Source: Bradyrhizobium prioriisuperbiae (lineage in GTDB: Bacteria > Pseudomonadota > Alphaproteobacteria > Rhizobiales > Xanthobacteraceae). From it: 64,000 nt of DNA. Positions 695 through 30,360 of the stretch are shown in pieces. A program made the position numbers and the translations under genes. A model generated the notes under the pieces. It ran no database searches. It was not told the origin of the DNA and worked only from the letters and a program-made list of their open reading frames with translations. The DNA is taken from NCBI RefSeq assembly GCF_032397745.1, contig NZ_CP135921.1:3708501-3772500 (forward strand), read 5' to 3'. Numbering within the stretch: the first letter of the stretch is position 1; the number at the start of each line of letters is the position of its first letter.

Positions 695-1465
695 ATGGCG
701 ACTGGATCGCAGGATAATCTTGACCACCTCATCAAGGAACTCGAGCGAGAAACGCGGGAGGAAGAGCTACGGCAACTTAAGGCGAATGCGAAGGTCCGTT
801 GGATTACTCCAACAGTCATGGCTGCCTTACTCCCTCTCCTCGCAGGCTTCGGTATATGGGTTTTAGGGGAGATCAAGCAGTACAGCGAGGGCTACCGGGC
901 TCTTAAGGATAAAGCAGGACTCGAACGCGACAAAGAAGCTTTGCTAAAGCAGAAAGACAGCCTCAACATCGAAATCGGAACGCTGCTGAAGCTCAAAGAG
1001 CACTATGCTGAGCAGGCTGGGCGGCTTGGCCAGGAGGTTGAGGCAAAGCAGGAGATTATGGACAAGACATATCTCCGTGCGGTGTTTCTGGGCTCGGAAT
1101 TCGAGTACGCGCTTGGTCACATCAAAGGGCTAGAGCCGGGCCCTGATCGAAAGGCGCTAGACGCGATCAAAGTGGACATAATGACTTTGCCAAAAGAGTC
1201 CGCGGCCCGGCTAGCGAAGCTACTCCAGCGCTACGATTTGATGGGGACTATCATCAATGCATCCCGCGGATCGGCCGATTTATTTCAACAGGCAGTGAGG
1301 CTCATTCCTGCCTCGGGCTGGGCCACGCGCCTGAGGCCTATGCCTTCCGGCTCCATCCTTCCAGGGCGCAATGTCATGTTCAGCGATGGTCCGGATGGAC
1401 GGCGCTATTACGACATCACGGAAGGGCGCTTCCTTACGAAAGATGAAGCAAAAGAGGCGCAATAG
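695..1465 (+). CDS. Membrane-anchored coiled-coil protein of unknown function
   Basis: 256 residues from the ATG at 695, chosen because AAGGAGAG lies at 683-690; the frame is open further up to a GTG at 614 but without such a site. A charged N-terminus is followed by one hydrophobic segment (about residues 37-58, TVMAALLPLLAGFGIWVLGE). A long Lys/Glu/Leu-rich segment predicted to be coiled coil covers about residues 60-130. The C-terminal half is of unrecognised fold and ends in a small YYDITEGRFLTKDE module. The layout suggests a single-pass membrane protein with a cytoplasmic or periplasmic sensor/adaptor role. It follows the probable MBL-fold gene after a 388-bp gap, so co-function is only a possibility. 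Confidence 0.75.
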   Translation: MATGSQDNLDHLIKELERETREEELRQLKANAKVRWITPTVMAALLPLLAGFGIWVLGEIKQYSEGYRALKDKAGLERDKEALLKQKDSLNIEIGTLLKLKEHYAEQAGRLGQEVEAKQEIMDKTYLRAVFLGSEFEYALGHIKGLEPGPDRKALDAIKVDIMTLPKESAARLAKLLQRYDLMGTIINASRGSADLFQQAVRLIPASGWATRLRPMPSGSILPGRNVMFSDGPDGRRYYDITEGRFLTKDEAKEAQ

Positions 1466-2219: not shown

Positions 2220-2300
2220 CCTCTCGGCGTCGAAGCCGCCTTGACGTCATCCCTCGTCATGCGTGCAGCGCCTCTGCGCACCATCGCGCCGTTCGTTGCA

Positions 2301-3119
2301 TCAGCGCGACTGGCTGCCTGCTATTTCCATTGCCGCGCCAGCGCGGCTCAGCGTCGGGTCGAATGGATTGAGTTTCGCGCCGATCTGCCGCGCCTCGCTC
2401 ATGAGGATCTCGGCAATCACCGCGTTGCGCTCCGGCGTCATCCGGTCCGTCGTGCTGCCAACGCTCAGGGCTGCGACGGCGCGTCCGTCGGGGGTTACGA
2501 TCGGAACGCCCAGGCCCGCCATGCCCGGAATTAATCCTTGCGCGCCGTCGCAAAAGCCTTTCGCGCGCACCCGCGCCATCTCGGCACGCAGGAATGCTTC
2601 GTCGAGGCCGGCGAAGTCGCGCATGCGTGGGAGATTGTAGCGAATAACCTCGTCCTGCTCGCCGGGGGGCAAGTGCGCAAGAATAGCCATCGCGCCCTGA
2701 CCGATTCCGAGCATGACACTGCCGCCGATATCGCCCGTGAAGGAGCGGATCGGCAGCGGGCCTGCGGTCCGGTCGATGCAGACCGCATCGAAACCGCTGC
2801 GAACCAGCAGGAAAATGGTCTCGCCGAGAGACCCCGTCAGCCGCAGCAGGGCAGGCCGGCAAAGCTCGCGCAGGTTCATGGGATTGCCGGCCCGCGCAGC
2901 CAGCATGAACAGATCAAGACCAAGCCGATAAACCTTGGCGCCCGCATCACGTTCGACCATTCCCTCGACGATCAAACTTGCCAGGATGCGGTGCGTCGTC
3001 GGCCGTGGAAGCCCGGCGGCGTCCGCGATGTCCTTCAAACGCAGGCCGCGTCCGTCTGCTGTCGCGAGGAGACGCAGCAGAGCGATGGTGCGATGAATGC
3101 CTCCACTCGGGTCGCTCAT
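2301..3119 (-). CDS. IclR-family transcriptional regulator
   Basis: 272 residues from the ATG at 3119 (another ATG lies 12 bases upstream). The N-terminal winged helix-turn-helix (about residues 8-65) carries LKDIADAAGLPRPTTHRIL, the usual recognition-helix segment of IclR proteins. The rest is the IclR effector domain, with the typical LxRLxxxxGETIFLLVRSGxDAVCID stretch and a GAQGLIPGMAGLGVPI ligand-pocket segment. It is divergently transcribed from hyuA, so by position it is the likely local regulator of the hyu/ABC/oxidase operon. The effector is unknown; a substrate of the pathway is the natural guess. Confidence 0.9.
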   Translation of the reverse strand: MSDPSGGIHRTIALLRLLATADGRGLRLKDIADAAGLPRPTTHRILASLIVEGMVERDAGAKVYRLGLDLFMLAARAGNPMNLRELCRPALLRLTGSLGETIFLLVRSGFDAVCIDRTAGPLPIRSFTGDIGGSVMLGIGQGAMAILAHLPPGEQDEVIRYNLPRMRDFAGLDEAFLRAEMARVRAKGFCDGAQGLIPGMAGLGVPIVTPDGRAVAALSVGSTTDRMTPERNAVIAEILMSEARQIGAKLNPFDPTLSRAGAAMEIAGSQSR

Positions 3120-3280
3120 TATTCCGAACATATGAATGATTGCGCGATTTAGTCCATAAGAATTCCGATCAGTGAAACTTCAGGGAAAAATTTGTCGGAT
3201 TTTGGAATGCTTCTTGCATCTCGCATGGCGATCCCTGAGCTTTGCGGAGCCGGGAAGCGATCGAAATGGGGACATCGAGT
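3120..3280. promoter_or_regulatory. Divergent promoter region between the IclR gene and hyuA
   Basis: AT-richer than its flanks. It contains the heptamer ATTCCGA twice in direct orientation (3121-3127 and 3162-3168) and a partial inverted copy (TCGGAT at 3195-3200 followed by GGAAT at 3204-3208). These could be half-sites for the divergent IclR regulator. No -35/-10 pair could be assigned with confidence. Confidence 0.3.
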
Positions 3281-5350: not shown

Positions 5351-6999
5351 ACGTCGCACTCGCGGCTCAACAGTCCGTCGCGCTCGACCCGATCACCGTC
5401 GAGGTCATCGGCGCGGCGTTGTCCTCGATCGTGGAGGAAACCGGTGAGGCGCTGATCCGCGCCTCCTACTCGACCAACATCAAGGAGCGGCGCGACTGCT
5501 CGACCGCACTGTTCAATGTCGAGGGCCAGACGCTTTGCCAGGCCGAGCACATCCCGATCCATCTCGGCAGCTTCATCGGCATCGTACCGCAGATTCTGCA
5601 GCAGCACGCGGTCGAAACCATGCGTCCCGGCGATGTCTTCATCGGCAACGATGCCTATGCGGGCGGCGGCACGCATCTGCCTGATATCGTGCTGGCCGAG
5701 CCGATCTTCGTCGACGGCCGCATTGTCGCCTGGACGGTCAATCTTGCGCATCATTCGGATTTCGCCGACCGCGGTCACGCCCATATCTATCAGGAAGGCC
5801 TGCGCATCCCGACCATCCGGCTCTACAGGGCCGGCGAACTGCAGAAGGACGTGCTCGACCTGATCCTGCTGAACTGCCAGGTGCCGCGCGAACGGCTGTC
5901 GGACTTGCGGGCGCAAATGGCCGCGAACCGTGTCGGTGTGCAGCGCTTCCAGGCGCTGTGCGCGAAGTATGGCACCGCGGTGGTGCTCGCCGCCGGCGAG
6001 GCATTGCTCGATTACGCGGAACGCAAGATGCGCGCCGGCATTGCCGCGATGCCGGATGGCACCTACCATTTCGAGGATGTGTTCGACAATCCGGAGATCG
6101 ACGGCGTGCTGCCGATCGCCGTGACCATCACGATTGCCGGCGACGAGATGCGGCTGCACTTTGTCAGCCCGCCGCAGGTGCGCGCCGGGATCAACATGAC
6201 GTATACGGCGCTGCTTGCCACCGCCTACTACATGGTCAAGTCGGTGGTCGATCCGACCATCCTGCCGAATGCCGGCCTGGCCCGGCCGCTGACGATCACC
6301 GCACCGGACGGCACGATTCTCAATTGCAGGCATCCCGCCGCGGTGAACGGCCGCGTGCAAACCTGCCAGCGCACCGCGGACGTCATTCTCGGTGCGCTGG
6401 CACAGGCGGTTCCCGCGCGCGTGTCGGCCTGCACCAACAGCTCGTGCTGTGTCGCCACCTTCAGCGGCGAGATGCCGAAAGACGGCACCATCTGGGTCTA
6501 TGTCGAGACCATGGGGGGCGGCGCCGGTGCGCGGCCCGGCAAGGACGGCCTCGATGGCGTGCACGTGCATGTCACCAACACCTCGAACCTGCCGGTGGAG
6601 GCGCTCGAGCTCGAATATCCGCTCACGCTCATGCGTTATGAACTGGTCGATGGCTCCGGCGGCGCCGGCACGTATCGCGGCGGCATGGGGCTGCGGCGCG
6701 TCTATCGCGCCGAAGCGGACTGCCGGGTCCGGGTCGATGTCTCGCGCTTGCGCTCGCAATCCTGGGGCCTGCTCGGCGGATTGCCGGGGGCGCATGGGCG
6801 CATGGTTCCGGGGCCGGGCGTCACGTTCAAGCGCGACGCCGCCGAATTGAAAGCTGGCGACTGGTTCGAGGTGATCACGCCGGGCGCGGGAGGCTACGGC
6901 CCGCCGGCCGGGCGTGATCGCGCAGCCATCGCCCGCGATCTTGCCGAGAGCGTCATCGACACTGCCGCGGCCCGTGACATCTATGGTTTCAACCCGTGA
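5347..6999 (+). CDS. hyuB: Hydantoinase/5-oxoprolinase family subunit B
   Basis: 550 residues, starting in the ATGA that overlaps the hyuA stop. The N-terminus (DPITVEVIGAALSSIVEE, then RASYSTNIKERRDCSTALF) and GNDAYAGGGTHLPDI around residue 100 are diagnostic of the HyuB family. The C-terminal GGAGTYRGGMGLRRVYR and TPGAGGYGPP motifs are also present, so the protein is full length. It partners HyuA to hydrolyse the cyclic amide; the split A/B arrangement contrasts with the single-chain eukaryotic 5-oxoprolinase. Translational coupling to hyuA suggests stoichiometric synthesis. Confidence 0.93.
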   Translation: MNVALAAQQSVALDPITVEVIGAALSSIVEETGEALIRASYSTNIKERRDCSTALFNVEGQTLCQAEHIPIHLGSFIGIVPQILQQHAVETMRPGDVFIGNDAYAGGGTHLPDIVLAEPIFVDGRIVAWTVNLAHHSDFADRGHAHIYQEGLRIPTIRLYRAGELQKDVLDLILLNCQVPRERLSDLRAQMAANRVGVQRFQALCAKYGTAVVLAAGEALLDYAERKMRAGIAAMPDGTYHFEDVFDNPEIDGVLPIAVTITIAGDEMRLHFVSPPQVRAGINMTYTALLATAYYMVKSVVDPTILPNAGLARPLTITAPDGTILNCRHPAAVNGRVQTCQRTADVILGALAQAVPARVSACTNSSCCVATFSGEMPKDGTIWVYVETMGGGAGARPGKDGLDGVHVHVTNTSNLPVEALELEYPLTLMRYELVDGSGGAGTYRGGMGLRRVYRAEADCRVRVDVSRLRSQSWGLLGGLPGAHGRMVPGPGVTFKRDAAELKAGDWFEVITPGAGGYGPPAGRDRAAIARDLAESVIDTAAARDIYGFNP

Positions 7000-7009
7000 G
7001 GATCGCGCC

Positions 7010-8530
7010 ATGTCCCTGACCGTCTCCCGTCGCGCCGTCCTTGCCGGTGCCGCCGCCCTGCCGTTGCTGCGTGTGCCGGGCGCGCGTGCCGCCTCTCCGG
7101 GGACGCTCACATTCGGCCTGTCGAGCTACCCGCCCAGCGTGCTGCCCTGGGCCAATACCGGCACCGCGGCCGCCACCGTGAAGCTGATGATCTATCGCGG
7201 CCTCACCGGCTTTGCGCCCGATGGCAGTCTGCGCGCCGAACTCGCCGAGAGCTGGGCGCCGGAGGGAACCGCAGCCTGGGTGTTCAAGCTGCGCGACGCC
7301 ATGTTCCAGAACGGCGAGAAGGTCACGAGCGCCGACGTGAAATGGACGATCGAACAGGTCGTCGGCGAGAAATCCACCGCCTATCTGCGTTCCCAAATGC
7401 AGGCCATCGAAAAAGTCGAGACACCCGACGACAAGACCGTGCGCTTCGTGATGAAAGAGCCCGCGGCGACGTTGCCGCTGCTGTTTGCCAACTTCCACAT
7501 GCCGATGATCTGGCGCGGTTCCGACGCAAAGTCGCCGGTCGGCGCAGGCCCGTTCGTGATCAAGGCTCAGGAGCGCGGGGTTTCGATCGATCTCGAGGCG
7601 TCGGACAAATATTACAAGCCCGGCCTTCCCAGGCTGAAAGCGATCCGCGCGATAGCCTATGCGGACGAGAACCTGCGCGTCGCGGCCTTGCAGGCGGGCG
7701 ACGTCGATCTCATCGAGTATGTCCCGTGGCAGTCGATGGAGGCGATCAGCGGGGATTCCAGGCTCGCGCTCGACGCAGTCGACGGGCCGTACATGTATCT
7801 TGTCTTCAATGCCGGCAAACCGCCGTTCAACGACGCGCGCGTGCGCAAGGCGGTGGCGCACGCGGTCAAGCGCGACGAGGTCGTAAAGGCCGCGTTCTTC
7901 GGCCGTGGCTCGGGCCTCGCGCATTTGCCGATCCCGAAGGCCAGCGAGTTCTTCAATCCCGCCTACGAAAACGCCTGGCAATTCGATGCCGTGCTGGCCA
8001 GGAAGCTGCTGGTCGACGCGGGCCATCCCAACGGATTCACCTGTTCGTTCCTGTCGACCGCGCAATACGGCATGCACAAGGATTCCGCCGAAATCGTTCA
8101 ACAGAACCTCGCCGCCATCGGCATCAAGGCGGAACTCAACCTGCCCGACTGGGCCACGCGCGTCACCATCGGCAACAAGGGCCAGTATGACCTGGCGATG
8201 ATGGGCGACGCGGCCGACAGCAACGATCCTGACGGCATCGCCAAGGCCATCGACGGCTCGCTGTCGTCCTCCTATACGCGTTCGTTCGGGCTGAAGAGCG
8301 ACAAGATCTCCGCGCTCATCAAGGCCGGACGTGCCGAATTCGATCTGGCGAAGCGCAAGGCGATCTACCAGGAGCTGGAAGCCCTGGTGATCGAGGAGGC
8401 GCCGATCGTCGGCCTTGCCTGGCGCAGCCAGGGATATGCCATGCAGAAACGCGTGACCGGCTTCAAGAACCTTCCGGGCGCGCTCACCTTCTACGCGGGA
8501 ACCACCTTCGAAGACGCAGCGGTCGGGTGA
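7010..8530 (+). CDS. Peptide/nickel-type ABC transporter substrate-binding protein (SBP family 5)
   Basis: 506 residues from the ATG at 7010, eleven bases after the hyuB stop, with GAGG overlapping that stop. The frame is open further upstream but only inside hyuB. A twin-arginine-like signal peptide (SRRAVLAGAAALPLL...ARA, residues 5-29) predicts periplasmic export. The mature part has the family 5 layout: LTFGLSSYPPSVLPW, the LAESW(A)PEGTAAWVFKLRD strand and a VRKAVAHAVKRDEVV helix near residue 280. It delivers substrate to the permeases encoded next. Its position after hyuAB suggests that it binds the hydantoin/lactam or peptide-like substrate of the pathway. Confidence 0.9.
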   Translation: MSLTVSRRAVLAGAAALPLLRVPGARAASPGTLTFGLSSYPPSVLPWANTGTAAATVKLMIYRGLTGFAPDGSLRAELAESWAPEGTAAWVFKLRDAMFQNGEKVTSADVKWTIEQVVGEKSTAYLRSQMQAIEKVETPDDKTVRFVMKEPAATLPLLFANFHMPMIWRGSDAKSPVGAGPFVIKAQERGVSIDLEASDKYYKPGLPRLKAIRAIAYADENLRVAALQAGDVDLIEYVPWQSMEAISGDSRLALDAVDGPYMYLVFNAGKPPFNDARVRKAVAHAVKRDEVVKAAFFGRGSGLAHLPIPKASEFFNPAYENAWQFDAVLARKLLVDAGHPNGFTCSFLSTAQYGMHKDSAEIVQQNLAAIGIKAELNLPDWATRVTIGNKGQYDLAMMGDAADSNDPDGIAKAIDGSLSSSYTRSFGLKSDKISALIKAGRAEFDLAKRKAIYQELEALVIEEAPIVGLAWRSQGYAMQKRVTGFKNLPGALTFYAGTTFEDAAVG

Positions 8531-8534
8531 AGCG

Positions 8535-9488
8535 ATGTTCGGCTATGCGCTGACTCGGATCGCAGTCGCGCTCGGGCTCATCTGGGCGGTCGTCACGCTG
8601 GTCTTCCTGATCATTCATTTCGTGCCTGGCGATCCCGCCGAACTGCTGCTCTCCCAGGGCGGTGTCGCGCCGGATCCCGCCGCGGTCACCGAATTGCGGG
8701 AAAAGCTCGGCCTCGATCGGCCGATCCTCGCCCAGTATGTCAGTCATATTGGCGGCCTTCTCAAGGGTGATCTCGGCTCTTCGCTGCTCGACGATCATTC
8801 CGTTGCGGAGGAGATTGCGCTGCGCCTGCCGCGTACGCTGGAGCTGATCTTCGCCGCCAGCCTGATCGCGGTTCTGTTCGGCCTGCCGCTCGGCACGCTT
8901 GCGGCTCTGCGGTCCGGCAGCGCGATCGATCGCGTCCTTGCGGGCGTTGCGGGCCTTGGTCTGTCGATTCCGGTGTTCGTGGTCGGCACCGTCGCGATTC
9001 TGGTGTTTGCGCAGAAGCTGCACTGGGTGCCAGCCGGCGGCTTCGTGCCGTTTTCGCGCGACCCGCTGCAGCACCTCATCCTGCTGCTGATGCCGGCAAG
9101 CGCCATCGCGGTCGGACTTGGTGCCGTCGTGTTCCGCATGACGCGGTCCTCCGTGCTGGAGGTGCTGCAGCGCGACTACGTGCGCGCGGCGCACGCCAAG
9201 GGGCTCCGCCCCTCCCGTATCGTGCTGCATCACGTGCTGCGCAACGCGCTGATCCCGGTCGTCACGGTGCTTGCGCTTCATATGGGCTCGCTGCTCGGCG
9301 GAACGGTGCTGGTCGAGTTCGTGTTCAACTGGCCAGGCCTCTCCGGCTACCTTGTGCGCGCCGTCGAACAGCGCGATTACCCGGAGGTCGTCGGCATCGT
9401 GCTGGTGATTTCCATCGCTTTCGTCCTCATCAATCTGGCGGTCGATCTGCTGTATGCGGTGATCGACCCGCGCGTGCGGCACGGCTGA
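8535..9488 (+). CDS. ABC transporter permease, DppB type
   Basis: 317 residues, starting five bases after the binding-protein stop. The DppB-like N-terminus has a first membrane helix followed by a periplasmic loop (HFVPGDPAELLLSQGGVAPD, then LREKLGLDRPILAQY). The inner-membrane permease domain has about six helices. The EAA loop RAAHAKGLRPSRIVLHHVLR, near residues 217-236, contacts the ATPase. It forms the transmembrane heterodimer with the permease half of the fused protein encoded next. Confidence 0.92.
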   Translation: MFGYALTRIAVALGLIWAVVTLVFLIIHFVPGDPAELLLSQGGVAPDPAAVTELREKLGLDRPILAQYVSHIGGLLKGDLGSSLLDDHSVAEEIALRLPRTLELIFAASLIAVLFGLPLGTLAALRSGSAIDRVLAGVAGLGLSIPVFVVGTVAILVFAQKLHWVPAGGFVPFSRDPLQHLILLLMPASAIAVGLGAVVFRMTRSSVLEVLQRDYVRAAHAKGLRPSRIVLHHVLRNALIPVVTVLALHMGSLLGGTVLVEFVFNWPGLSGYLVRAVEQRDYPEVVGIVLVISIAFVLINLAVDLLYAVIDPRVRHG

Positions 9489-11344
9489 TGGCCGCGCGAC
9501 CGGTCCATCGCCTCTATCTGCCGGGCGCAATCGTCGCCGCCGTCATCGTCGTTGCCCTCGCGGCGCCGCTGCTTCCGTTGGCCGATCCAGTGAAGATGGA
9601 GGTGTCGTCGCGGCTTGCGCTGCCATCGCTCGGACATCCGCTCGGCCAGGACGAATACGGCCGCGACGTGCTGTCACGGATCATCTGGGGCGCGCGCGCC
9701 TCGCTGGCGGTGGCTTTCTTCTCGGCGATATCCGCCGGCCTTGTCGGCATCGCGCTCGGTCTGATCGGCGGCTATGCGCGCGGCGTTCTCGAGATCCTGA
9801 CCGTGCGGTCCATGGAGGCCATCGTCTGTTTTCCGCCGATCCTGCTGGCGCTGCTGGTCGTCACCCTGATGGGGCCGGGGGCTGCGACACTGGTGATCGC
9901 GCTGACTATTCTGTATGCGCCAGGCTACACGCGCGTCGCTTTCGCCGCAACGCTGGCGACTCGCGGGCTCGACTACGTCACCGCGCAGCAGGCGCTCGGC
10001 GCCAAACCGGTGCGCATTCTCGTTCGCACCATCCTGCCCAACATCGCGCCGCCGCTGCTGGTACAGTTTTCGCTGACCGTCGCCGCCGCCATGGTGCTGG
10101 AGAGCGGGCTTTCCTTTCTCGGCCTGGGCGTCGTGCCACCCGCGCCGTCCTGGGGGCTGATGATCCGTGGCGCACGCTCGACCATGGAGCAAGCGCCATG
10201 GTTGCTGCTGTGGCCCTGCCTCGCGCTCACCAGCACCATTCTGACATTCAATCAGCTGTGCGATCGTCTGCGCGATGCGCTCGACCCGCGCGCGGGATCG
10301 GCCGGCGGGGGTTGGCTCGAGCGCGCGGCAGCCCGGGTCTGGCCCGACGCATCGCCCGCCCCGGCGCCTTCGTTGCTGCGTGTCGAAGGCCTCACCATCG
10401 AGATCGAGACGCCGACGGCCCGCATTCGCCCGGTGCGTGACGTGTCGCTTTCGCTCGCCCCCGGCGAGACATTGGCGCTAGTGGGAGAAAGCGGCTCGGG
10501 CAAAACCCTGACCGGCCTCGCATTGATGGGCCTGCTGCCACCGACGATGGAGATCATCGCCGGCCGGGTGCTGTTCGTCGACCGCGCCGGGCGGGCGCGC
10601 GATCTCGCGCATTTGCCCGAGACCGAGATGCGCCGGTTGCGTGGCGACGAGATCGCCATGGTATTCCAGGACCCGGGCAGCAACCTCAATCCCGTGCATC
10701 GCATCGGCGATCAGGTGGCCGAGGTGATCCGCGCGCACCGCGATGTGTCACGCACGGGGGCTGCAGCACAAGCAGTCGCATTGCTGAAGGACGTTGGCCT
10801 GCCTGACCCGGGGCCGCGCTCACGTGCCTATCCGCATGAGCTTTCCGGTGGTCAGCGCCAGCGCACCATGATCGCCGCCGCGATCGCCAACGGGCCGCGA
10901 CTCCTGATCGCGGACGAGCCGACCACGGCGCTCGACGTGACCATTCAGGCGCAGATCCTCGATCTGCTCGCCGCGTTCAAGACAAAAGGCGAGATGGGCG
11001 TCGTCTTCATCACCCACAATCTCGCGGTCGTCGCCGAGATCGCCGACCGCGTGTGCGTGATGTATGCCGGCGAAATCGTCGAAGAGGGACCAGTCGCCGA
11101 AGTGTTCGCGCGTCCGCGCCACCCCTATACGGCAGCCTTGATCGCGAGCGCGCCAGAGGGTTCTGACGCACAACTCGCCGCCATTCCGGGGACCGTCCCG
11201 CTGCCGCAGGCGCTGCCCGCGGGCTGCAACTTCGCGCCGCGTTGCGCATGCGCGGCGGAGCCATGCCATACCGCAAAGCCCGCCTTTGCCGAAGTAAGCC
11301 CCGGCCATGCCTCGCGCTGCTTTCGGTGGAAGGAGGTCGCATGA
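9488..11344 (+). CDS. Fused ABC permease (DppC type) and ATP-binding protein (DppD type)
   Basis: 618 residues in one uninterrupted frame. Residues 1 to about 275 are a DppC-like permease: GHPLGQDEYGRDVLSRIIWG near residue 49, about five to six membrane helices, and the EAA loop TAQQALGAKPVRILVRTILP. A Pro/Ala-rich linker near 280-295 leads into a complete ABC ATPase: Walker A GESGSGKT at about 332, LSGGQRQR near 452, Walker B LLIADEPTTALD near 472, and the oligopeptide-type C-terminal Cys segment (CNFAPRCACAAEPC). In most species these are two genes. The ATG overlaps the previous stop (TGATG), and the end overlaps the next gene by ATGA. A sequencing frameshift cannot explain the fusion, because both halves and the linker share one frame. 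Confidence 0.92.
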   Translation: MAARPVHRLYLPGAIVAAVIVVALAAPLLPLADPVKMEVSSRLALPSLGHPLGQDEYGRDVLSRIIWGARASLAVAFFSAISAGLVGIALGLIGGYARGVLEILTVRSMEAIVCFPPILLALLVVTLMGPGAATLVIALTILYAPGYTRVAFAATLATRGLDYVTAQQALGAKPVRILVRTILPNIAPPLLVQFSLTVAAAMVLESGLSFLGLGVVPPAPSWGLMIRGARSTMEQAPWLLLWPCLALTSTILTFNQLCDRLRDALDPRAGSAGGGWLERAAARVWPDASPAPAPSLLRVEGLTIEIETPTARIRPVRDVSLSLAPGETLALVGESGSGKTLTGLALMGLLPPTMEIIAGRVLFVDRAGRARDLAHLPETEMRRLRGDEIAMVFQDPGSNLNPVHRIGDQVAEVIRAHRDVSRTGAAAQAVALLKDVGLPDPGPRSRAYPHELSGGQRQRTMIAAAIANGPRLLIADEPTTALDVTIQAQILDLLAAFKTKGEMGVVFITHNLAVVAEIADRVCVMYAGEIVEEGPVAEVFARPRHPYTAALIASAPEGSDAQLAAIPGTVPLPQALPAGCNFAPRCACAAEPCHTAKPAFAEVSPGHASRCFRWKEVA

Positions 11345-12318
11345 CCGCGCCGCTGGTCCGGGCCGAGAACGTGTCACGCAGCTTCGCCAGCCGCTCCGGC
11401 TGGTTCGCGCGGCGCACCGAAGTCAAAGCGGTGCGTGAGGTCGATATCACGGTTGGGCGTGGTGAGGCATTGGGTGTCGTCGGCGAGTCGGGGTGCGGCA
11501 AGTCCACCCTCGGCCGCATGCTGCTGCACCTCTTGCCGCCGACCAGCGGCCGGGTGTTCTTCGACGGGCACGCACTGCAAGATCTGGCACCGGCAACGCG
11601 CCGCCGGCTGCGCGCCCGCATGCAGATGATCTTTCAAGATCCCTACGGCAGCCTCGATCCGCGCCGCCGTGCGGGCGAGCAGATCGCCGATGGCATCATG
11701 ATCCATGGCCTCGCGGATCCCACCGAGGCGCGCGCGCGCGTCGCGGATCTCCTGCAGCGCGTCGGTCTCGATCCTGCTCACGGCGATCGTCTCCCGCACG
11801 AGTTCTCTGGCGGGCAGCGTCAGCGCATTGCCATTGCGCGCGCGCTCGCGACCACGCCTGACTTCATCGTTGCCGATGAACCGGTCTCCGCGCTCGACGT
11901 CTCGGTACAGGCCCAGATCGTCACGCTGATGGCCGAATTGCGTTCCAGTTTCGGCCTCGCGCTTCTCTTCATCAGCCACGACCTGCATGTGGTGCGGCAC
12001 CTGTGTGAGCGCGTGGTGGTGATGTATCTCGGCCGCGTGGTCGAGGAAGGGGACGTGTCGGAGATCTTCCGCAGGCCCGCCCATCCCTACACCCGCGCGC
12101 TGACCGCCGCGACGCCGTCGATCCGGCCGCGGTCTGGCAAGGTTGTGCTGTCCGGGGACCTGCCGAACCCGGCCGCGCCGCCTTCCGGCTGTGTGTTCCG
12201 CACGCGCTGTCCACACGCGGTTGCCCCTTGTGCCGAAAGCATTCCTGCGCTGCGCCAGATCGCGCGCGGCCGGCGCGTTGCCTGCCTGCGTGACGACATT
12301 GTGGCTCAGCATGGATGA
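11341..12318 (+). CDS. ABC transporter ATP-binding protein, DppF type
   Basis: 325 residues; the ATG at 11341 lies in the ATGA overlap with the upstream stop (longer frames upstream lie inside that gene). Walker A GESGCGKST is near residue 50, the signature FSGGQRQR near 156, Walker B FIVADEPVSALD and the switch histidine in FISHD follow. The C-terminal oligo/dipeptide domain has the cysteine pair segment CVFRTRCPHAVAPC. It is the second ATPase of the importer, pairing with the ATPase half of the fused upstream protein. Confidence 0.93.
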   Translation: MTAPLVRAENVSRSFASRSGWFARRTEVKAVREVDITVGRGEALGVVGESGCGKSTLGRMLLHLLPPTSGRVFFDGHALQDLAPATRRRLRARMQMIFQDPYGSLDPRRRAGEQIADGIMIHGLADPTEARARVADLLQRVGLDPAHGDRLPHEFSGGQRQRIAIARALATTPDFIVADEPVSALDVSVQAQIVTLMAELRSSFGLALLFISHDLHVVRHLCERVVVMYLGRVVEEGDVSEIFRRPAHPYTRALTAATPSIRPRSGKVVLSGDLPNPAAPPSGCVFRTRCPHAVAPCAESIPALRQIARGRRVACLRDDIVAQHG

Positions 12319-12395
12319 GGCTTCGGGGTCGGCGGAATGTGAATCTCTTCGTTAAGCGCCGTCGACGGCGCGGACCATGGAAACTGGACATATCG

Positions 12396-13091
12396 ATGCG
12401 AAGAGTTGCGATGATATCGGGCGCTAATCGGGGCATTGGTCTCGCGATCGCGCGTGAATTGAGACAGGCCGGCCTCGCGCTGTCGCTGGGTATTCGTCGG
12501 CCTGGCGATTTTTCCGACCCCCTTGCGGCCGATGGCGAAGTACAGGTCCATTGCTATGACGCGGGTGATCGCAACGCCGCGGCGCCCTGGGTTGATGCCA
12601 CCATCGCACGGTTCGGACGCATCGATGTGCTGGTGAACAATGCGGGGATTTCGCGGTTCGTCGGCCTCGAGGATGGCGATGAAGACGACCTCGACGCGTT
12701 GCTCGCGATCAATGTCACGGCGCCGTTCCGACTGACCCGCGTCGCCCTCCCTTATCTGAAGGTCGCAGGCAGCGGCCGTGTCATCAATGTTGCATCGCTC
12801 TCCGGCAAGCGCGTGATGGGCCTCAATGCCGGCTACCAGATGTCGAAGCATGCGATCGTCGCGCTCACCCATGCGGTGCGCCGGATCGGTTGGGAGCACG
12901 GTATCCGCGCCACGGCGTTGTGCCCAGGGTTCGTCAGCACGGACCTGACCGCGCGTGTGACCGACGTACCCCATGACCAGATGATCGACCCGGCCGACCT
13001 CGCGAAGCTGGTTGCCACGGTCATCGCTCTGCCGAACACGGCGGCGGTCGCCGAACTGCTGGTCAATTGTCGATACGAACACACGCTGTGA
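12396..13091 (+). CDS. Short-chain dehydrogenase/reductase
   Basis: 231 residues from the ATG at 12396, chosen because SDR proteins normally start just before the first beta strand (MRRVAMISGANRGIG). An ATG at 12315 overlapping the dppF-type stop would add a 27-residue Arg-rich extension. The cofactor loop GANRGIG is at residues 9-15, NNAG near 80, the catalytic Ser in NVASLSGK, and the YQMSK Tyr-Lys pair near 149-153. It is an NAD(P)-dependent oxidoreductase acting on an alcohol or carbonyl. By position it handles an intermediate of the HyuAB/amino acid oxidase pathway, though its substrate is unknown. Confidence 0.9.
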   Translation: MRRVAMISGANRGIGLAIARELRQAGLALSLGIRRPGDFSDPLAADGEVQVHCYDAGDRNAAAPWVDATIARFGRIDVLVNNAGISRFVGLEDGDEDDLDALLAINVTAPFRLTRVALPYLKVAGSGRVINVASLSGKRVMGLNAGYQMSKHAIVALTHAVRRIGWEHGIRATALCPGFVSTDLTARVTDVPHDQMIDPADLAKLVATVIALPNTAAVAELLVNCRYEHTL

Positions 13092-13105
13092 ACGAGGAAC
13101 TTCCG

Positions 13106-13417
13106 ATGATCGAAGGCGTTTCGCAAACGGGCCTGTTTCGACGCCTCGTTCCACGGTCCGGTGCGGTGATCCCGTTTACGATCGATGGCGAACCGACCGA
13201 GGCTCGCGAGGGCGACCTGCTGCTCACAGCCATTCTGTTGCACCGTCCCGCCTTGCGGCGCTTCGAGTTCGGCAATGCCGATCGCGCGGGCTTCTGTCTC
13301 ATGGCGGCCTGTCAGGACTGCTGGGTGAGCCTCGCCGACGGTCGCCGGATGCGGGCCTGTACGACACCCATCGAGCCCGGCATGGCGGTCGTCATCGATG
13401 GGGTTGCCCATGACTGA
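13106..13417 (+). CDS. (2Fe-2S)-binding subunit of an HcnA/hydroxyproline-dehydrogenase-like complex
   Basis: 103 residues from the ATG at 13106, preceded by GAGGAA. The Fer2_4-type fold has cluster cysteines in FCLMAACQDC and a fourth cysteine in MRACTT (C-x4-C-x2-C ... C). This is the small subunit of three-component amino acid/opine dehydrogenases (HcnA, OoxA-like, HypA-like), which passes electrons between the flavin subunits and the respiratory chain. The next gene starts in an eight-base overlap with its 3' end, so the three subunits are translationally linked. Confidence 0.88.
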   Translation: MIEGVSQTGLFRRLVPRSGAVIPFTIDGEPTEAREGDLLLTAILLHRPALRRFEFGNADRAGFCLMAACQDCWVSLADGRRMRACTTPIEPGMAVVIDGVAHD

Positions 13418-14783
13418 TCTGGCGACTGATCCGGCGGTCGTCGTTGTCGGCGCAGGCCCGGCGGGTTTGCGCGCGGCCGAAGCACTGACCAGGGGCGGCG
13501 TGCGTCCGATTCTCATCGACGAGGCGGAACGGCCGGGCGGCCAGATCTATCGTCAACCGCCGCCGGGCGCCGCCCGTTCACCCAGGACACTCTATGGCTT
13601 CGAGGCCAGGAAGGCCGTCGCGATTCATGTCATTCCCGCTCGCCTTGGTGATGCGATCGACTACCGTCCCCAGACGCTGGTCTGGAATGTCTTCGGGCAA
13701 CACCTCGACACAATCGGGCCGTCCGGGCATCACAGGCTCGGGTTCAACCGGCTCGTGATCGCGAGCGGCGCGATGGATCGGGTTCTGCCATTTCCAGGTT
13801 GGACGCTGCCCGGCGTGTTCACACTCGGCGGTGCGCAAATTGCCCTCAAGGCGCAAGGCGTATCGATCGGCCGGCGCGTCGCCCTGGTCGGGGCCGGACC
13901 GTTGCTGCCGCTGGTCGCCTATCAATATGCCAAGGCGGGCGCCGAGATCGCCGCGGTGCTGGACGTCACCCCGTTCTCGGCAAAGCTCCGCAATGCTCCG
14001 GGGCTTCTGGCGCAAACAGGCACGCTCGCAAAGGGCCTCTGGTACGTTGCGCGCAACCTTCTTTCGGATCTCGTGGTCTGTTCCGGCGTTCGTGCTATCG
14101 GCGTGATGGGCCAGGATCGGGTTCGCGGCCTTTGGTGGCACGATGCAGCCGATAAGGAGCATCGCGTCGCCTGCGATGCCGTCGGGGCCTCATTCGGGCT
14201 CCGGAGCGAAACACAACTCGCCGACCTCGCCGGTTGTGGCTTTGCGTATGACGACATCACCAGGCAGTGGCTTCCCCAGCGCGACGCTACGGGCCGCTCG
14301 AGCGTGCCCGGCGTCTACCTCGCCGGCGACGGCGCCGGCATCGGCGGTGCCGACGTCGCCGAATTGCAAGGAGAGCGCGCGGCGCTGGCTGTGCTCGAGG
14401 ATCTTGGCGCGCCCATCGACACGGCTCGCGTTGCCGCGCTCGATCGCAAGCTCGCGCGTCAGGGGCGCTTTCGCAATGCGCTTGAGCGTGCCTACCCGTA
14501 TCCCGCGCATCTGCTCAATGACGTGGACAACGCGGAAATCATATGCCGCTGCGAGGGCATTACGGCCGGAACCTTACGCGCCGCCGCGACAGAGCGCGAC
14601 GCGCAGGAAATGAACCGCTTGAAGGCCTTTACGCGCATCGGCATGGGCCGCTGCCAGGGCCGGGTCTGTGGACCCGCCGCCGCGGAGATCCTTGCGCGGA
14701 CGCTTGGCAAAAATATCGCCGCCGTCGGCCGCCTGCGCGGCAATCCCCCCGTCAAGCCGATCCCGGTTGGAGGCTTGCCATGA
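13410..14783 (+). CDS. FAD/NAD(P)-binding subunit of an HcnB/OoxA-like amino acid dehydrogenase
   Basis: 457 residues from the ATG at 13410; an in-frame ATG 12 bases upstream is also possible. The dinucleotide-binding VVVGAGPAGLRAAEAL is near residue 10 and PGGQIYRQPPPG near 45. A second nucleotide fold, VALVGAGPLLPLVAYQ, is near 155, and the FAD site GVYLAGDGAGIGGADVAELQG near 310. The C-terminal BFD-like [2Fe-2S] domain has CRCEGIT...GRCQGRVCGP. This is the middle subunit in the HcnABC gene order. In HcnABC the complex oxidises glycine to cyanide; related complexes oxidise D-hydroxyproline or opines, and here the HyuAB context favours amino acid catabolism. Confidence 0.88.
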   Translation: MTDLATDPAVVVVGAGPAGLRAAEALTRGGVRPILIDEAERPGGQIYRQPPPGAARSPRTLYGFEARKAVAIHVIPARLGDAIDYRPQTLVWNVFGQHLDTIGPSGHHRLGFNRLVIASGAMDRVLPFPGWTLPGVFTLGGAQIALKAQGVSIGRRVALVGAGPLLPLVAYQYAKAGAEIAAVLDVTPFSAKLRNAPGLLAQTGTLAKGLWYVARNLLSDLVVCSGVRAIGVMGQDRVRGLWWHDAADKEHRVACDAVGASFGLRSETQLADLAGCGFAYDDITRQWLPQRDATGRSSVPGVYLAGDGAGIGGADVAELQGERAALAVLEDLGAPIDTARVAALDRKLARQGRFRNALERAYPYPAHLLNDVDNAEIICRCEGITAGTLRAAATERDAQEMNRLKAFTRIGMGRCQGRVCGPAAAEILARTLGKNIAAVGRLRGNPPVKPIPVGGLP

Positions 14784-15934
14784 CGGAGCACCTCGCGGTT
14801 GATGTCGCGATCATTGGAGGCGGGACGGCCGCCTGTGCTGCGGCGGTCGCGCTGCGCGAGGCGGGGCTCACGGTGGCTGTGCTGGAAAAGCGCTTGTGCG
14901 GTGCGGGCGCCAGCGGCGTCAATTTCGGAGGCGTGCGCCAGCAGGGGCGTCATCTCGCCGAACTGCCGCTCGCGCGCCGGGCACGGGCGTTGTGGGACAA
15001 TCTCAATCAGCTTCTCGGCGAGGATGTCGAGTTCGAGGCGTCCGGACATATCAAACTGGCGCGCTCCGAAACTGACATGGCGGAACTGGAGCGTTACGCG
15101 GAGAGTGCGCGTGAGCATGGTCTCGCACTGACATTGCTCGGCGCCAACGCGGTGCGCGACGAACTGCCCTGTATCGGACCCAAGGTGCATGGTGCTTCGC
15201 TATCGCCGACCGACGGCCACGCTAATCCGCGCGTAGTGGGACCGGCCTATGCGCGGCTGGCGCGCCGGCGCGGTGTCGCGGTTCGGGAATGCGCGCCGGT
15301 GCGCCATGCGGTGTCGACCGGCGTAGGATTCGAGATCGAGGCCGATGGCTTGACCGTGAAGAGCTGCTGGTTGGTCAACGCGGCAGGCGTCGGAGCGGGC
15401 GTTGTCGCATCCTGGTTCGGTGAACCTGCCCCGGTTTCCCCGCTGATGCCCAACATGCTGGTGACAGAGCCGCTGCCATATGTCATTTCGCGCTCCATCG
15501 GCGTGTGCGGTGGCGACGTCTATGTCCGGCAGATCCGGCGCGGCAACGTCATCCTCGGGGGCGGACACGGATGGGGCGATGCCGAACTCGGTCTCGCGCG
15601 GCCGCAGGTAGAGGAATCTCTCGGCAGCATGCGACGCGCCGTTGATATCGTGCCCGCACTCGCAGGCGTGCAGGTCATCCGTACCTGGAGCGGCATGGAC
15701 GGGCAGATGCCGGATCATATTCCCGTCATCGGCTTCTCCTCAACCACGCCGCGTCTCGTGCATGCCTTTGGTTTTTCCGGGCATGGATTTCAGCTAGGTC
15801 CGGTTATCGGTCTGATCATCGCGGAACTCATTGACGAGGGGCACACCATTTCGCCGATTGCACCATTTGCACCCCAGCGCTTCGCTAACTGGACTGACGA
15901 ACCCGTAGCAGCATATGGGGGCGTCCAGCATTGA
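14780..15934 (+). CDS. FAD-dependent amino acid oxidase subunit (HcnC/DAO family)
   Basis: 384 residues, starting in an ATGA overlap with the upstream stop. The N-terminal FAD-binding VAIIGGGTAACAAAVALREA is near residue 9, then GASGVNFGGVRQQGRH. The C-terminal DAO signature has RTWSGMDGQMPDHIPVIG and FGFSGHGFQLGP. It is the catalytic subunit that oxidises a D-amino acid, sarcosine-like or imino acid substrate. The (2Fe-2S)-FAD/NAD-DAO order matches hcnABC. It ends the operon; no terminator hairpin was found after it. Confidence 0.88.
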   Translation: MTEHLAVDVAIIGGGTAACAAAVALREAGLTVAVLEKRLCGAGASGVNFGGVRQQGRHLAELPLARRARALWDNLNQLLGEDVEFEASGHIKLARSETDMAELERYAESAREHGLALTLLGANAVRDELPCIGPKVHGASLSPTDGHANPRVVGPAYARLARRRGVAVRECAPVRHAVSTGVGFEIEADGLTVKSCWLVNAAGVGAGVVASWFGEPAPVSPLMPNMLVTEPLPYVISRSIGVCGGDVYVRQIRRGNVILGGGHGWGDAELGLARPQVEESLGSMRRAVDIVPALAGVQVIRTWSGMDGQMPDHIPVIGFSSTTPRLVHAFGFSGHGFQLGPVIGLIIAELIDEGHTISPIAPFAPQRFANWTDEPVAAYGGVQH

Positions 15935-16412
15935 GCTCGGACGCTCGACGCGGTCTGTACCGGGATGTCGGTGCGTGCCGGCGCCGATCATTTTACACGG
16001 TCGCCGGTGCACTGAAATCGACGTAGCCGCCGGGCAGTCGCGCCAACGCGTCGGTGCAAGTGCCGTACTAAGCTCTGAGACACCAGGCAGTTTGAGATGG
16101 TTGCGGTTCCCCGATTTGAGCCCGCAACTCGACGGCTCTCTGGGGACTTTGGGCGGATGATCGGAGGAAATGTCGCAGATCTGGGGCGTTTGGGGAAAGG
16201 CGGTAGCGCTCTCCCGACTCGAACCCCGACAGCACTCTCTCAGCGGCTCATCGTCTCGACGACTGTTCGATTAAACCTAGCGATCGGGTATCCGGAGTCT
16301 ACCCATTCTGCCGCACCAGTTTTCGCACAAAAACGACCTCAATGAAGGGCAACAAACGCGCTCGAAATTGGCCAAAAATCTAGGAAAATCAACACCAGCA
16401 ACCTTTATCCCG
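15935..16412. other. Gene-free stretch before the tRNA fragment
   Basis: About 480 bases of lower coding quality. Only short frames occur, none with a ribosome binding site or a recognisable product. The segment 16098-16130 faintly resembles the 3' end of a tRNA read on the minus strand, but its T-arm does not pair. Confidence 0.4.
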
Positions 16413-16460
16413 CCGCTCATAACGGTCTGGTTGCAGGTTCGAGTCCTGCCGGGCCCACCA
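16413..16460 (+). other. 3' half of a CAT-anticodon tRNA gene; candidate integration (att) site
   Basis: The segment reads as an anticodon arm with loop CTCATAA (anticodon CAT), a five-base variable loop, a perfectly paired T-arm (GCAGG TTCGAGT CCTGC) and an acceptor 3' strand CGGGCCC followed by ACCA. Upstream bases show no D-arm and no matching GGGCCCG 5' acceptor strand, so this is not a functional tRNA. Integrases commonly use this 3' half as att core, leaving the intact gene at one end and such a copy at the other. With this orientation the element should lie to the left. Confidence 0.75.
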
Positions 16461-16977
16461 TCGCCTCCATCACTTCGCGAGCAACAATCCGCCCTGATCG
16501 CAAAATCCGGGATGTTGCCTACTGCCGTGTCGATCGGGATCGAGCGCGCCTCCAGGTTTCGAGGGAGGATCTGATTGCGCTAAAGGAAGTCGTGCTGTCG
16601 AAAATCGATGCATTCGCCACTCGCAAAAATCTCGAAGTTTTCGCCAAGGCATTTCGGTCCGCGAAGGAGCTCCTCTTTTCAGACGAGCGGCTTTCGAAGA
16701 CCTTGTCATTCCGATCTTGCACCGGCATCCGATGCCTCAATCGAGCGAACTGTACTGGCGTAAATTCGTCTCGTTTGGGCGCGAGCGGTCGAGCTCGATG
16801 GACGCCCGCCGGGTTGTGCGATCATTCGTAATTCCAGCGGAAGGGATATGTTGATGGACGAGCTTCTTATGCCAGTTCCAACTTCAAGACATTTAATGAA
16901 AATCCCACGGATCGAATTAGACCGGCGGTCACGGGCCGTTGCTAACCAAGCCCGCTGCTAGAGATGGAGGATTCGAT
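16461..16977 (+). other. Region right of the att-like site; possible gene remnant
   Basis: No complete gene can be supported. One frame stays open from the tRNA fragment to 16831 and translates to a protein-like stretch (for example REDLIALKEVVLSKIDAF and NLEVFAKAFRSAKELL) without a convincing start. It could be the 3' remnant of a gene broken by integration, or chance. From 16832 to 16977 only the ribosome binding site of the next gene (16966-16970) is seen. Confidence 0.3.
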
Positions 16978-17229
16978 TTGGTTAACTACGCCGCGGTGAG
17001 GGACTTGCTGATAAACGCGCAATTCGAGCTGGATGGCGGCGATATGCAGAGCGAACGCATCAGCAAGGCGATCGACTATTTGATCGAGGTGGTCGAGGAC
17101 GAGTGCCCCAAGACTAGCGGCCCCAAGACCAGTGGCCCCAAGACTTTCGGCTTGAAGACTTTCGTCTCGAAGACTTGCCGCGCGCAAGTCATCCCCTTCC
17201 CGCAGGATCGTCGGTTGGCGCGGATGTAG
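16978..17229 (+). CDS. Small protein with a pentapeptide tandem repeat
   Basis: 83 residues from a TTG at 16978, chosen because GGAGG lies at 16966-16970, seven bases upstream. The N-terminal half is helical and acidic (VRDLLINAQFELDGGDM, then SKAIDYLIEVVEDE). A run of five pentapeptides of type (C/G/V)(P/L/S)KT(S/F/C) covers about residues 43-67, followed by VIPFPQDRR. Function unknown. The repeat unit is 15 bp in the DNA, so copy number could vary by slippage without frameshift. Confidence 0.65.
   Translation: MVNYAAVRDLLINAQFELDGGDMQSERISKAIDYLIEVVEDECPKTSGPKTSGPKTFGLKTFVSKTCRAQVIPFPQDRRLARM
17104..17178 (+). repeat. Five tandem copies of a 15-bp unit inside a small gene
   Basis: Units start at 17104, 17119, 17134, 17149 and 17164. 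All share AAGAC at the same phase; the first three are nearly identical (GGCCCCAAGAC core) and the last two have drifted. The in-frame unit length gives a pentapeptide repeat in the small protein encoded here. Confidence 0.85.
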
Positions 17230-18287: not shown

Positions 18288-18312
18288 TAGTTTGACATAT
18301 GCAACTAGTTTG
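18288..18312. promoter_or_regulatory. TAGTTTG direct repeat upstream of the Bug-protein gene
   Basis: TAGTTTG occurs at 18288-18294 and again at 18306-18312, 18 bp apart start to start. The pair lies 67-91 bases upstream of the minus-strand start at 18221, in the only AT-rich part of the gap. The spacing of under two helical turns suits a dimeric regulator. No regulator gene is adjacent, so this is a candidate only. Confidence 0.3.
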
Positions 18313-18446
18313 CACTCATGAACTATTCGGCCGGTGTTGGGGGCGCTCCGGCTGCTCGTTGGTGAGTTCGTGGACCATGAGGTCGTCCGGTGGGATGCTG
18401 ATGATCGGGATCGCTGCGTCGCCGCGGCGCCTCCTCTTGCCCGCCC

Positions 18447-18545
18447 TTGTTCGCTGCGATCAAGGCAGCGATCGATGCTGAGGCAAAGCCTGTCATTCTG
18501 GTCTGTTATTCCTTCGGCGGGATAGTGATCACGGAATCCAGCACC
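18447..18545 (+). pseudogene. Fragment resembling an alpha/beta-hydrolase nucleophile elbow
   Basis: A short frame reads FAAIKAAIDAEAKPVILV followed by CYSFGGIVIT, which matches the strand-nucleophile-helix segment of EstC-like alpha/beta hydrolases (usually GHSYGGxVIT). There is no full-length frame on either side and no ribosome binding site, so at most it is a remnant. The rest of the gap 18222-18668 holds no other gene. Confidence 0.3.
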
Positions 18546-18668
18546 GAAGGTGGTTTGTGTACATCACCGCCAAGCGAGTCGATTTCGTCGCTCATCGCCA
18601 ATCCTCCGCCCGGCGCGTCACAGACACTGGTCGCATAACAAGATGTCACAGCGCCGTTAGGGTCGACT

Positions 18669-19739
18669 TCAATCGCGCAGCAGGGGGAGCAGCAGATCCC
18701 CTTGTCGCTTGATCTCGGACAGATATGGTGTGTCCGACAGTATGAAGTGGCTGACGCCCAGATTCTGATACTTGCGGAGCGAACGGGCGACATCCTCAGC
18801 TGAGCCGACCAGCCAGGTCGTGCCGGCGCCACCGCCGCCGAACTTGCCGGGGGCGGTGTAGAGGTTGTCGTCGAGGACGTCGCCGCGCTTGTGCAGGTCA
18901 AGCAGTCGCCGCTGCCCCACCGCGACGGCCTCCCGGTGGTCCTGCCAGCCGCTGCCGCTGGTCCTGGCCATCTCGGCGACCTTGGCTTCGGCGTCCGCCC
19001 AGGCCTGTGCTGTGGTCTCGCGAACCAGGGTTGTGATCCGCAACCCGAATTCAAGGGGAGCGAGATCGCGATCCAGCTCTCGGCTCAGCTCCTTAAGTCT
19101 TTCGATGCGTGTCCTGACGCCGTCGAGCGGTTCACCCCAGAACAACTGGACGTCGGCTTCCGTGGCCGCGACGCGCTCGGCCGGCTCCGATGCGCCGCCA
19201 AAATAGAGTTTGGGGTGCCGGCGGTCGCCGCGACTCTGGAGACGCGGTGCGGCGGTCGATCCGGTGACCCGGAAATGCTGGCCCGCGAAGGTGACGTTCT
19301 CTTCGGTCCACAATCGGCGAACCAGCCGCATGAATTCCCTGGTGCGGGAATAGCGGTGCTCCTGGTCTCCCTCGCTGTCGCCATAGGCAGCGAGATTGTC
19401 CTTGCCGGATACAATATTGATACGCACGCGGCCGTCGCTCAGCTGATCCAGCGTTGCCGCGGCGGACGCGAAATGAGCCGGTTGCCAATAGCCCGGGCGG
19501 ATCGCGATCAGCGGCTCGAAGGTGGTTGTTTGTGCGGCCAGCGCGGCTGCGACGGTGAAGGTATCGGGACGGCCCCAGCCGGTTCCGATCAGCGCGCCCT
19601 TCCAGCCATGCTGTTCGAGCGCCTTCGCCTGGTTCGTCAGGGTTGCCAGGCTGTTGTGATTCTCGACAACAGCGTCGCCGCGATGGCCGGCTTTGACATC
19701 GTTGGGGATGTACCAAAGAAATTCGGATGTGTTGATCAT
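18669..19739 (-). CDS. LLM-class flavin-dependent monooxygenase (SsuD-like)
   Basis: 356 residues from the ATG at 19739 (MINTSEFLWYIPND); a TTG at 19802 would add 21 residues. The TIM-barrel luciferase-like fold of FMNH2-dependent alkanesulfonate/alkyl-sulfone monooxygenases is marked by ALIGTGWGRPDTF near residue 60, PLIAIRPGYWQP, the RVRINIVSGKDNLAAYGD phosphate-site segment, and RYSRTREFMRLVRRLW. A flavin reductase partner would be needed and none is encoded here. The substrate is probably an organosulfur compound, but substrate specificity cannot be told from the sequence. Confidence 0.85.
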   Translation of the reverse strand: MINTSEFLWYIPNDVKAGHRGDAVVENHNSLATLTNQAKALEQHGWKGALIGTGWGRPDTFTVAAALAAQTTTFEPLIAIRPGYWQPAHFASAAATLDQLSDGRVRINIVSGKDNLAAYGDSEGDQEHRYSRTREFMRLVRRLWTEENVTFAGQHFRVTGSTAAPRLQSRGDRRHPKLYFGGASEPAERVAATEADVQLFWGEPLDGVRTRIERLKELSRELDRDLAPLEFGLRITTLVRETTAQAWADAEAKVAEMARTSGSGWQDHREAVAVGQRRLLDLHKRGDVLDDNLYTAPGKFGGGGAGTTWLVGSAEDVARSLRKYQNLGVSHFILSDTPYLSEIKRQGDLLLPLLRD

Positions 19740-19990
19740 GGGAAGGGTCAATGACTCGCGAGGTATCGGGGCAATGGTGCCAATCTCGCTAATCCCGGAC
19801 AATCAACGATCTCGGTGTTTTCGCACGGGGAGGGAGATACGCCGTAACGGTTGGCTTGAAAAGCGACAAGGCGGCTGCCCGCGTTTGGGAGAAGCATGTC
19901 CCTCAAAACGGCGCGGTCGCGCAGCAGGCATGCTGCGCAACGGCGGCTGCGGGCCAAAGTATTCTGGTGCGTTGCGGGGAGCAGGAGCCC

Positions 19991-20223
19991 ATGAACCTCA
20001 ATGGGCTGTTCGGCAGCGCTGCAATGATCGGCGCGCTGGTGTCGGATGCTTTCGGGGCGGTTGTCGCCGAGCTTTTCCCCGCCTACCTTCGGTTTGGCGC
20101 TGTGATCAGGCCGTGCCCGGCATTTTCCTGTCTGGCTTGGCAGCGATTGGATTTTGTTCGATCCTGCTGCTCAAGCGCGTTGGTCACGATGAAGAAGAAT
20201 TGAACCGCCAGGTCGGAGCCCGT
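19991..20223 (+). pseudogene. Possible frameshifted remnant of a membrane transporter
   Basis: From ATG 19991 (AGGAG just upstream) the frame gives a hydrophobic stretch with VAELFPAYLRFGA, similar to the ELFP-x-x-R segment of MFS transporters. Near 20105 the protein-like reading moves to another frame, which continues as PGIFLSGLAAIGFCSILLLK and HDEEELNRQ up to the aminotransferase start. A single indel would join the two. It could also be coincidence; the stretch 19740-19990 shows nothing else. Confidence 0.25.
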
Positions 20224-21417: not shown

Positions 21418-21429
21418 CGATCGAACGTC

Positions 21430-22452: not shown

Positions 22453-22648
22453 GCGCAGTAAACCTGTCGATGGTTCGATGCAGAACCGGATATTAGGTGT
22501 CTGGGCGGGACAGCGTAGCCCCGGTGAAACGTAATTTGAGGCCGTGCAGGCCTTCTGGAGTTTCCAGCAAAGTGGATACGGGGTCGCGTAAAAAAAGCGT
22601 CAGAACAGAAATCCAGAGTTTCCGTTTCGATCCGATCGGAACGGAACT

Positions 22649-23542: not shown

Positions 23543-23610
23543 CCCGACGGATTATACGTGATTCGCGGGCTTTCCGGCCGTGCCGGCCTGGAGCGATCGG
23601 TTGGTTGTGT

Positions 23611-23634
23611 CGGGCGGCCAGGGGCAGCCGCCCG
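23611..23634 (-). terminator. GC-rich hairpin after the yghU-type gene
   Basis: Perfect 8-bp stem CGGGCGGC/GCCGCCCG with an 8-base loop, 13 bp downstream of the stop of the minus-strand gene above it. There is no T-run on the minus strand, so termination strength is uncertain. Confidence 0.4.
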
Positions 23635-23646
23635 ATCAGGTGCCCA

Positions 23647-25872: not shown

Positions 25873-25894
25873 CGAACTAACGGATGGCGTCGCA

Positions 25895-30286: not shown

Positions 30287-30312
30287 GCCGGTTCCGCTTC
30301 ACTGCGACGATA

Positions 30313-30345
30313 CGTCATCGCCGGTCGGGAAGACCCGCGGTGACG
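30313..30345 (+). terminator. Imperfect hairpin between receptor and PepSY gene
   Basis: CGTCATCGCCGG (30313-30324) pairs with CCCGCGGTGACG (30334-30345) at ten or eleven of twelve positions. It is not followed by a strong T-run and lies 16 bases before the next start, so it may act as an attenuator or mRNA stabiliser rather than a full terminator. Confidence 0.35.
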
Positions 30346-30360
30346 ATGTTTGGTAACTGA

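Follow-up and report, generated by a model that had tools for sequence, protein, structure and literature searches.

A tRNA 3' fragment as the very probable right attachment site of a decayed 17.5-kb island at a tRNA(CAT) gene of Bradyrhizobium prioriisuperbiae

The DNA stretch analysed here (64,000 nucleotides of the Bradyrhizobium prioriisuperbiae genome, contig NZ_CP135921.1, positions 3,708,501–3,772,500; hereafter the window) contains the 3' half of a tRNA gene with the anticodon CAT that is not accompanied by a 5' half. This raises the question of whether the fragment is the trace of an integration and, if so, what was integrated, into which tRNA gene and in how many steps. A sequence-only reading of the window had described the fragment as 48 bp starting at position 16413 and proposed that it marks the right border of a genomic island, whose intact tRNA would lie to the left. 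A search of the genome revealed an intact tRNA(CAT) gene in the same orientation, the end of which is separated from the window start by 1,018 bases; the spacing between the fragment and this gene is 17,478 bp. The identity between the two copies was found to be one base longer than claimed, namely 49 bp (window positions 16412–16460 against tRNA positions 28–76) with 0 mismatches, and it is limited by tRNA position 28 on the left and by the CCA on the right. Of the anticodon arm, the fragment retains the larger part, CAT included; the T arm, the acceptor 3' strand and the CCA are also present. A D arm and a 5' acceptor strand are absent before the fragment. ARAGORN found no tRNA in the window, and no Rfam family reached its gathering score in it. 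The half-tRNA fold described earlier was reproduced in part: the minimum-energy fold of the 49-mer alone contains the T arm and the acceptor part, but not the anticodon arm.

To evaluate how specific this match is, a 32-bp core of the tRNA 3' end was searched for in the 9,083,454-base contig with up to 3 mismatches. Two places were found, both exact, and a reversed-pattern control gave 0 places in the same 9,083,454 bases; a third copy of the core was not found in the 9.08-Mb genome at this threshold. A chance likeness to half of a tRNA is refuted by the 49 bases shared exactly with one of the genome's own tRNA genes and by the two-place count with its empty control, and its probability is practically nil. 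The coordinates of the features are collected in the table.

Table. Features of the putative island and its ends. Positions refer to the window; negative numbers lie to the left of it.
Feature	Position	Strand	Basis
Intact CAT tRNA, left of the window	-1093 to -1018 (G000:C1:3707407-3707482)	+	ARAGORN
Tyrosine integrase C-terminal remnant, left of the window	-1016 to -801	-	Six-frame reading
Island gene, 256 aa, no named family	695..1465	+	Start from the 256-aa length of P0001
IclR-type regulator	2301..3131	-	Pfam PF09339, PF01614
HyuA, hydantoinase/oxoprolinase type	3242-5350	+	NCBIfam below cut-offs; annotated plasmid relatives
HyuB, hydantoinase/oxoprolinase type	5347-6999	+	NCBIfam below cut-offs; annotated plasmid relatives
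Peptide-type ABC transporter (binding protein, permease, fused permease-ATPase, ATPase)	6914..12318	+	Pfam SBP_bac_5; NCBIfam
Permease	8535-9488	+	Frame reading and conserved place
Fused permease-ATPase	9488-11344	+	
Short-chain dehydrogenase and two flavoprotein oxidoreductase genes	12315..15934	+	Pfam adh_short; Pyr_redox_2 with Fer2_BFD; DAO
tRNA 3' fragment (very probable right attachment site and right end of the island)	16412..16460	+	49 bases identical to tRNA 28-76

An integrase gene had also been expected next to the intact tRNA. Integrase sequence is indeed present there, not as a gene but as a decayed C-terminal piece that spans about 72 codons and is interrupted by a stop. A single base separates this piece from the intact tRNA; it is encoded on the other strand, so that the remnant faces the tRNA in convergent orientation. 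The remnant is 60% identical over 52 residues to the intact integrase of a relative (genome G027) and 43% identical over 74 columns to that of another relative (G025). The alignment has a gap opposite the HTLRH motif of the relatives, and the tyrosine near the end is retained. Pfam did not recognise the remnant; this and its short length weigh against the island reading. No convincing score for the N-terminal part of the integrase and no recognisable second integrase remnant were obtained in the 74 kb searched, and the G027 integrase gave no match in the own genome at E <= 1e-60. Since the integrase is reduced to a remnant, the island is probably immobile.

The position and orientation of the intact tRNA agree with the earlier view that the integrated DNA lies to the left of the fragment, and together with the integrase sequence they support the fragment as the right end of an island. 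All these characteristics allow us to assume, with high confidence, that a tyrosine integrase inserted a 17.5-kb island at a tRNA(CAT) gene, probably that of tRNA-Ile2, with the 3' half of the gene as its target, and that the fragment represents the right attachment site of this island. According to this scheme, a tyrosine-integrase element would have entered the 3' half of the gene and brought its own copy of this half; recombination in the anticodon-loop region would have made the tRNA whole again at the left end, and the old 3' half would have been pushed to the right end, where it forms the present fragment. The integrase would have been active at that time and decayed later, the ability of the island to excise itself would since have been lost, and all the DNA between the two ends would have arrived in one event.

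A counterpart with an intact integrase was found in G027. Here, the tRNA (L068:2826-2901) is faced by a 402-aa integrase (2908-4116), and a tRNA 3' fragment follows 13.1 kb on from the tRNA, ending near position 16050 of L068. A paired T-stem change distinguishes the intact tRNA of G027 from its fragment. Such a difference is expected if the element brings a 3' half, and it suggests which of the two halves arrived with the element. In G025, the integrase reading frame (L079:11800-13095) overlaps the 3' end of the facing tRNA gene. Copies of the 3' part alone, at least 47 bp long, were present in five of 60 genomes among the matches listed (G000, which is the genome under study, G012, G013, G025 and G027). 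Partial duplications of tRNA genes can occur without any integration, and the fragment could accordingly be a tRNA pseudogene with no island between the copies. The integrase remnant adjoining the intact tRNA and the fragments of equal extent in relatives that have an intact integrase argue against such a simple pseudogene, which was rejected as very improbable.

Relatives of this integrase were found in 31 of 198 genomes of the host family (E <= 1e-60), and the 33 matches yielded 30 loci for analysis with up to 1.5 kb on each side, some of these stretches being ended by the contig. A CAT tRNA lies beside the 3' end of the integrase in 16 of the 30 loci and a tRNA-Pro(CGG) beside the integrase in four; the available stretch of the other 10 contains no tRNA. 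The last two groups indicate that the integrase family is not restricted to a single tRNA, which counts against the scheme given above. In the 16 genomes with a CAT tRNA next to the integrase, a 32-base pattern was found at 21 places, comprising 11 intact CAT tRNAs, nine 3' fragments and one other tRNA, as distinguished by their sequence contexts. The fragments are spread over seven of these genomes, and their number is to be read as at least nine, because the pattern gave zero places in four genomes and failed to detect the intact tRNA of G160; another search gave two fragments for G025, which belongs to the four genomes without a place. Compared with the tRNA of G000, the identity of the nine fragments begins at position 30 in six cases and at positions 28, 29 and 32 in one case each. 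The window fragment, whose identity begins at 28, is inside this range.

A phylogenetic tree of the integrases was constructed from 27 loci; the remaining three of the 30, represented by short rows (one CAT-adjacent and two without tRNA), were left out. The distribution of the CAT-adjacent integrases on the tree takes six changes, at least four of them forced by well-supported branches; shuffled controls had a mean of 9.2 changes and were as low in 10 of 500 cases. The CAT-adjacent integrases are therefore clustered but do not form one clade, and a group of single origin dedicated to the CAT tRNA was rejected. These results are compatible with a broader proposal, which falls a little short of an even chance in our estimation: the tRNA-Ile2(CAU) gene may be a standing hotspot of the host family, reused by members of a single integrase family that belong to several lineages but share one recombination point in the anticodon loop, and the window island may represent a catabolic operon that entered there and was fixed by the loss of the integrase.

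The identity of the target tRNA was considered separately, since ARAGORN labels the intact gene as tRNA-Met (CAT). A search with the Rfam model followed by typing found 45 tRNAs in the genome, four of them with the anticodon CAT; none of the 45 carries an Ile label, and some tRNAs may therefore have escaped detection. Two of the three other CAT tRNAs have a C at position 1 opposite A72, which we take to be an initiator-like feature, and the third presumably resembles elongator Met. As the other three look initiator-like or like elongator Met, the target is most likely tRNA-Ile2 and not tRNA-Met. The C34 of tRNA-Ile2 is modified to lysidine by TilS, and a TilS domain is encoded in the genome (165.5 bits against a cut-off of 93.6). 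The second of the initiator-like CAT tRNAs (G000:C1:8346767-8346840; L178) is quite unlike the other (L106) in sequence.

The surroundings of the tRNA were then compared in 14 loci with an intact tRNA from 13 of 60 genomes of relatives, the 3' sides available being 7.9-17.1 kb each. An flhA and/or MFS gene is located 5' of the tRNA in six of the 14 loci (G001, G002, G007, G021, G025 and G030); in a seventh, G028, these genes are found 3' of it instead. Barring G028 and the integrase remnant, the 3' sides share with the own genome relatives of common protein families at no more than 36% identity, and no orthologous 3'-side content common to the own genome was found across the 14 loci. Among themselves, the 3' sides have the G025/G027 integrase region, scattered matches below 50% and little else in common. 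A flanking order kept in all relatives, which the earlier reading had named as an observation against an island, was thus not found. Judging from these comparisons, the DNA 3' of the tRNA is a variable site. Since the 3' side differs in all 14 loci, an empty site is not recognisable, and none was detected using the left flank plus tRNA DNA, the right flank or the 3' sides of the 14 loci, these last being compared with one another and with the own genome; this counts against the scheme. Among the matches listed, the stretch 18300-38200 is scattered in eight relatives, not at the tRNA. One right-flank match on the contig of the tRNA (G016) was dropped as an array of TctC genes at no more than 33% identity with no other right-flank genes. 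This locus (L255; G016:C14:40000-59800) contains 14 matches of TctC-type binding proteins in about 15 kb, 3' of the same tRNA. A dispersed repeat of about 58 bp was noticed in the right part of the window (32747-32806); it has many copies of about 90-97% identity in several relatives, with dozens of rows among the matches listed.

The cargo between the two ends includes ten genes (2301-15934), hereafter the operon. NCBIfam matched HyuAB with caprolactamase and acetophenone carboxylase models and the transporter with dipeptide/oligopeptide transporter models, all below the cut-offs (620.7 and 254.8 against 1000 bits for the caprolactamase models). Judging from the protein families, the operon looks like a catabolic module, in which the ABC transporter would provide uptake, HyuAB would open a ring or an amide, and the flavoproteins and dehydrogenase would carry out oxidation. 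The 256-aa gene at the left end has a longest reading frame of 283 codons (614-1465). Searches with its protein found 61 proteins, the query itself among them, and a precomputed Pfam domain was available for one of the 61; the 60 relatives come mostly from short contigs and, in a few cases, from named marine bacteria. Pfam, PADLOC and PHROGs gave no match for the 614-1465 frame or the small left-end frames submitted.

The distribution of the operon is patchy. All ten genes in identical order were found in Humitalea rosea (L111; the last gene is cut by the locus end), the sole one of 62 loci with the full set; many others hold parts. Relatives of the binding protein (E <= 1e-100) occur in six of 198 host-family genomes, the own genome included and neither congener among them. 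The five others have ten genes (G015, G082 and G107), eight (G100) and four (G140, on a 7-kb contig). HyuA is at least 69% identical in 45 of the 62 loci, mostly from Acetobacteraceae or Rhodospirillales by record title, but the identity in the host-family genomes G015, G082, G100 and G107 (75-78%) is as high as that of the best named records (78%). The Acetobacteraceae were therefore dropped as the donor, and no donor can be named. A plasmid search with positions 1-16460 gave no record covering at least 80% of the query among 197; the top match in the best 20 of the 197 records was HyuAB at 74%, and 30 of the 197, outside the best 20, had a best place of at least 95% identity. The patchy distribution fits a horizontal gain but is no proof of it.

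These data bear on an alternative that accepts the attachment site and differs on the history. The 17.5 kb could have been built stepwise, the HyuAB operon having joined an earlier integrase element, or the right-hand DNA could be an older tandem island with a decayed distal end. The uneven base composition speaks for such a history. The G+C content of the left end is 52.8% compared with 65.9% in the operon; the contrast with the left flank (64.4%) also speaks for the island as such, whereas neither the operon nor the whole island (63.4%) is distinct from the flanks. In addition, the first 700 bp past the fragment (16461-17160) have 55.0% G+C, and base composition therefore gives no sharp right border; this segment contains no listed frame of at least 100 codons and is possibly the remains of another insertion. 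The operon also occurs elsewhere without the tRNA 3' end (the core was found at 0 of 67 cargo loci with up to 5 substitutions), and the right flank is not located at this tRNA in the relatives compared. On the other hand, a stepwise history finds no counterpart in a third tRNA copy or a second integrase remnant in the searches described above. We consider it unlikely, though far less so than a simple pseudogene, and in the preferred reading the whole 17.5 kb would have been integrated in one event.

The island was finally compared with known systems. According to the Islander description (PMC4383910), an Islander island consists of an intact tRNA gene, a displaced fragment and the island between them; CAT tRNAs are sorted into Ile, initiator and elongator classes, and the sites into an anticodon-centred class (2083 islands) and a T-stem region class (1836). 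Within that description, the window island is similar in having an intact tRNA and a displaced end fragment on one replicon, with the 3' fragment downstream of the tRNA and both on the + strand, in its length (17,478 bp, within 2-200 kb) and in its site in the anticodon region, as in the anticodon-centred class. Unlike Islander islands, for which the same source requires an integrase ORF, it has a remnant of about 72 codons with a stop. The Islander integrase filter, as given there, would probably reject the island as not putatively active, and in the absence of an integrase ORF it is classed as a decayed island and not as an active one of the Islander type. In PMC9174649 and PMC9239051, Bradyrhizobium symbiosis elements at tRNA-Ile and remnants of them are described; the window island resembles them in its integration into a tRNA gene and, as a remnant, in the loss of parts. 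It differs from the monopartite symbiosis elements of these accounts, which are about 0.33-0.77 Mb long and carry symbiosis genes, in its length of 17.5 kb and its catabolic operon. The fragment and the intact tRNA define the borders of an acquired catabolic module and suggest that the module is locked in place. They also point to a tRNA hotspot, the ends of which are comparable in several relatives and could be useful for studies of the site choice of integrases. The entry of DNA at a tRNA gene is a common event that produces a well-known kind of island, and the general view of such islands is unchanged by the one described here.
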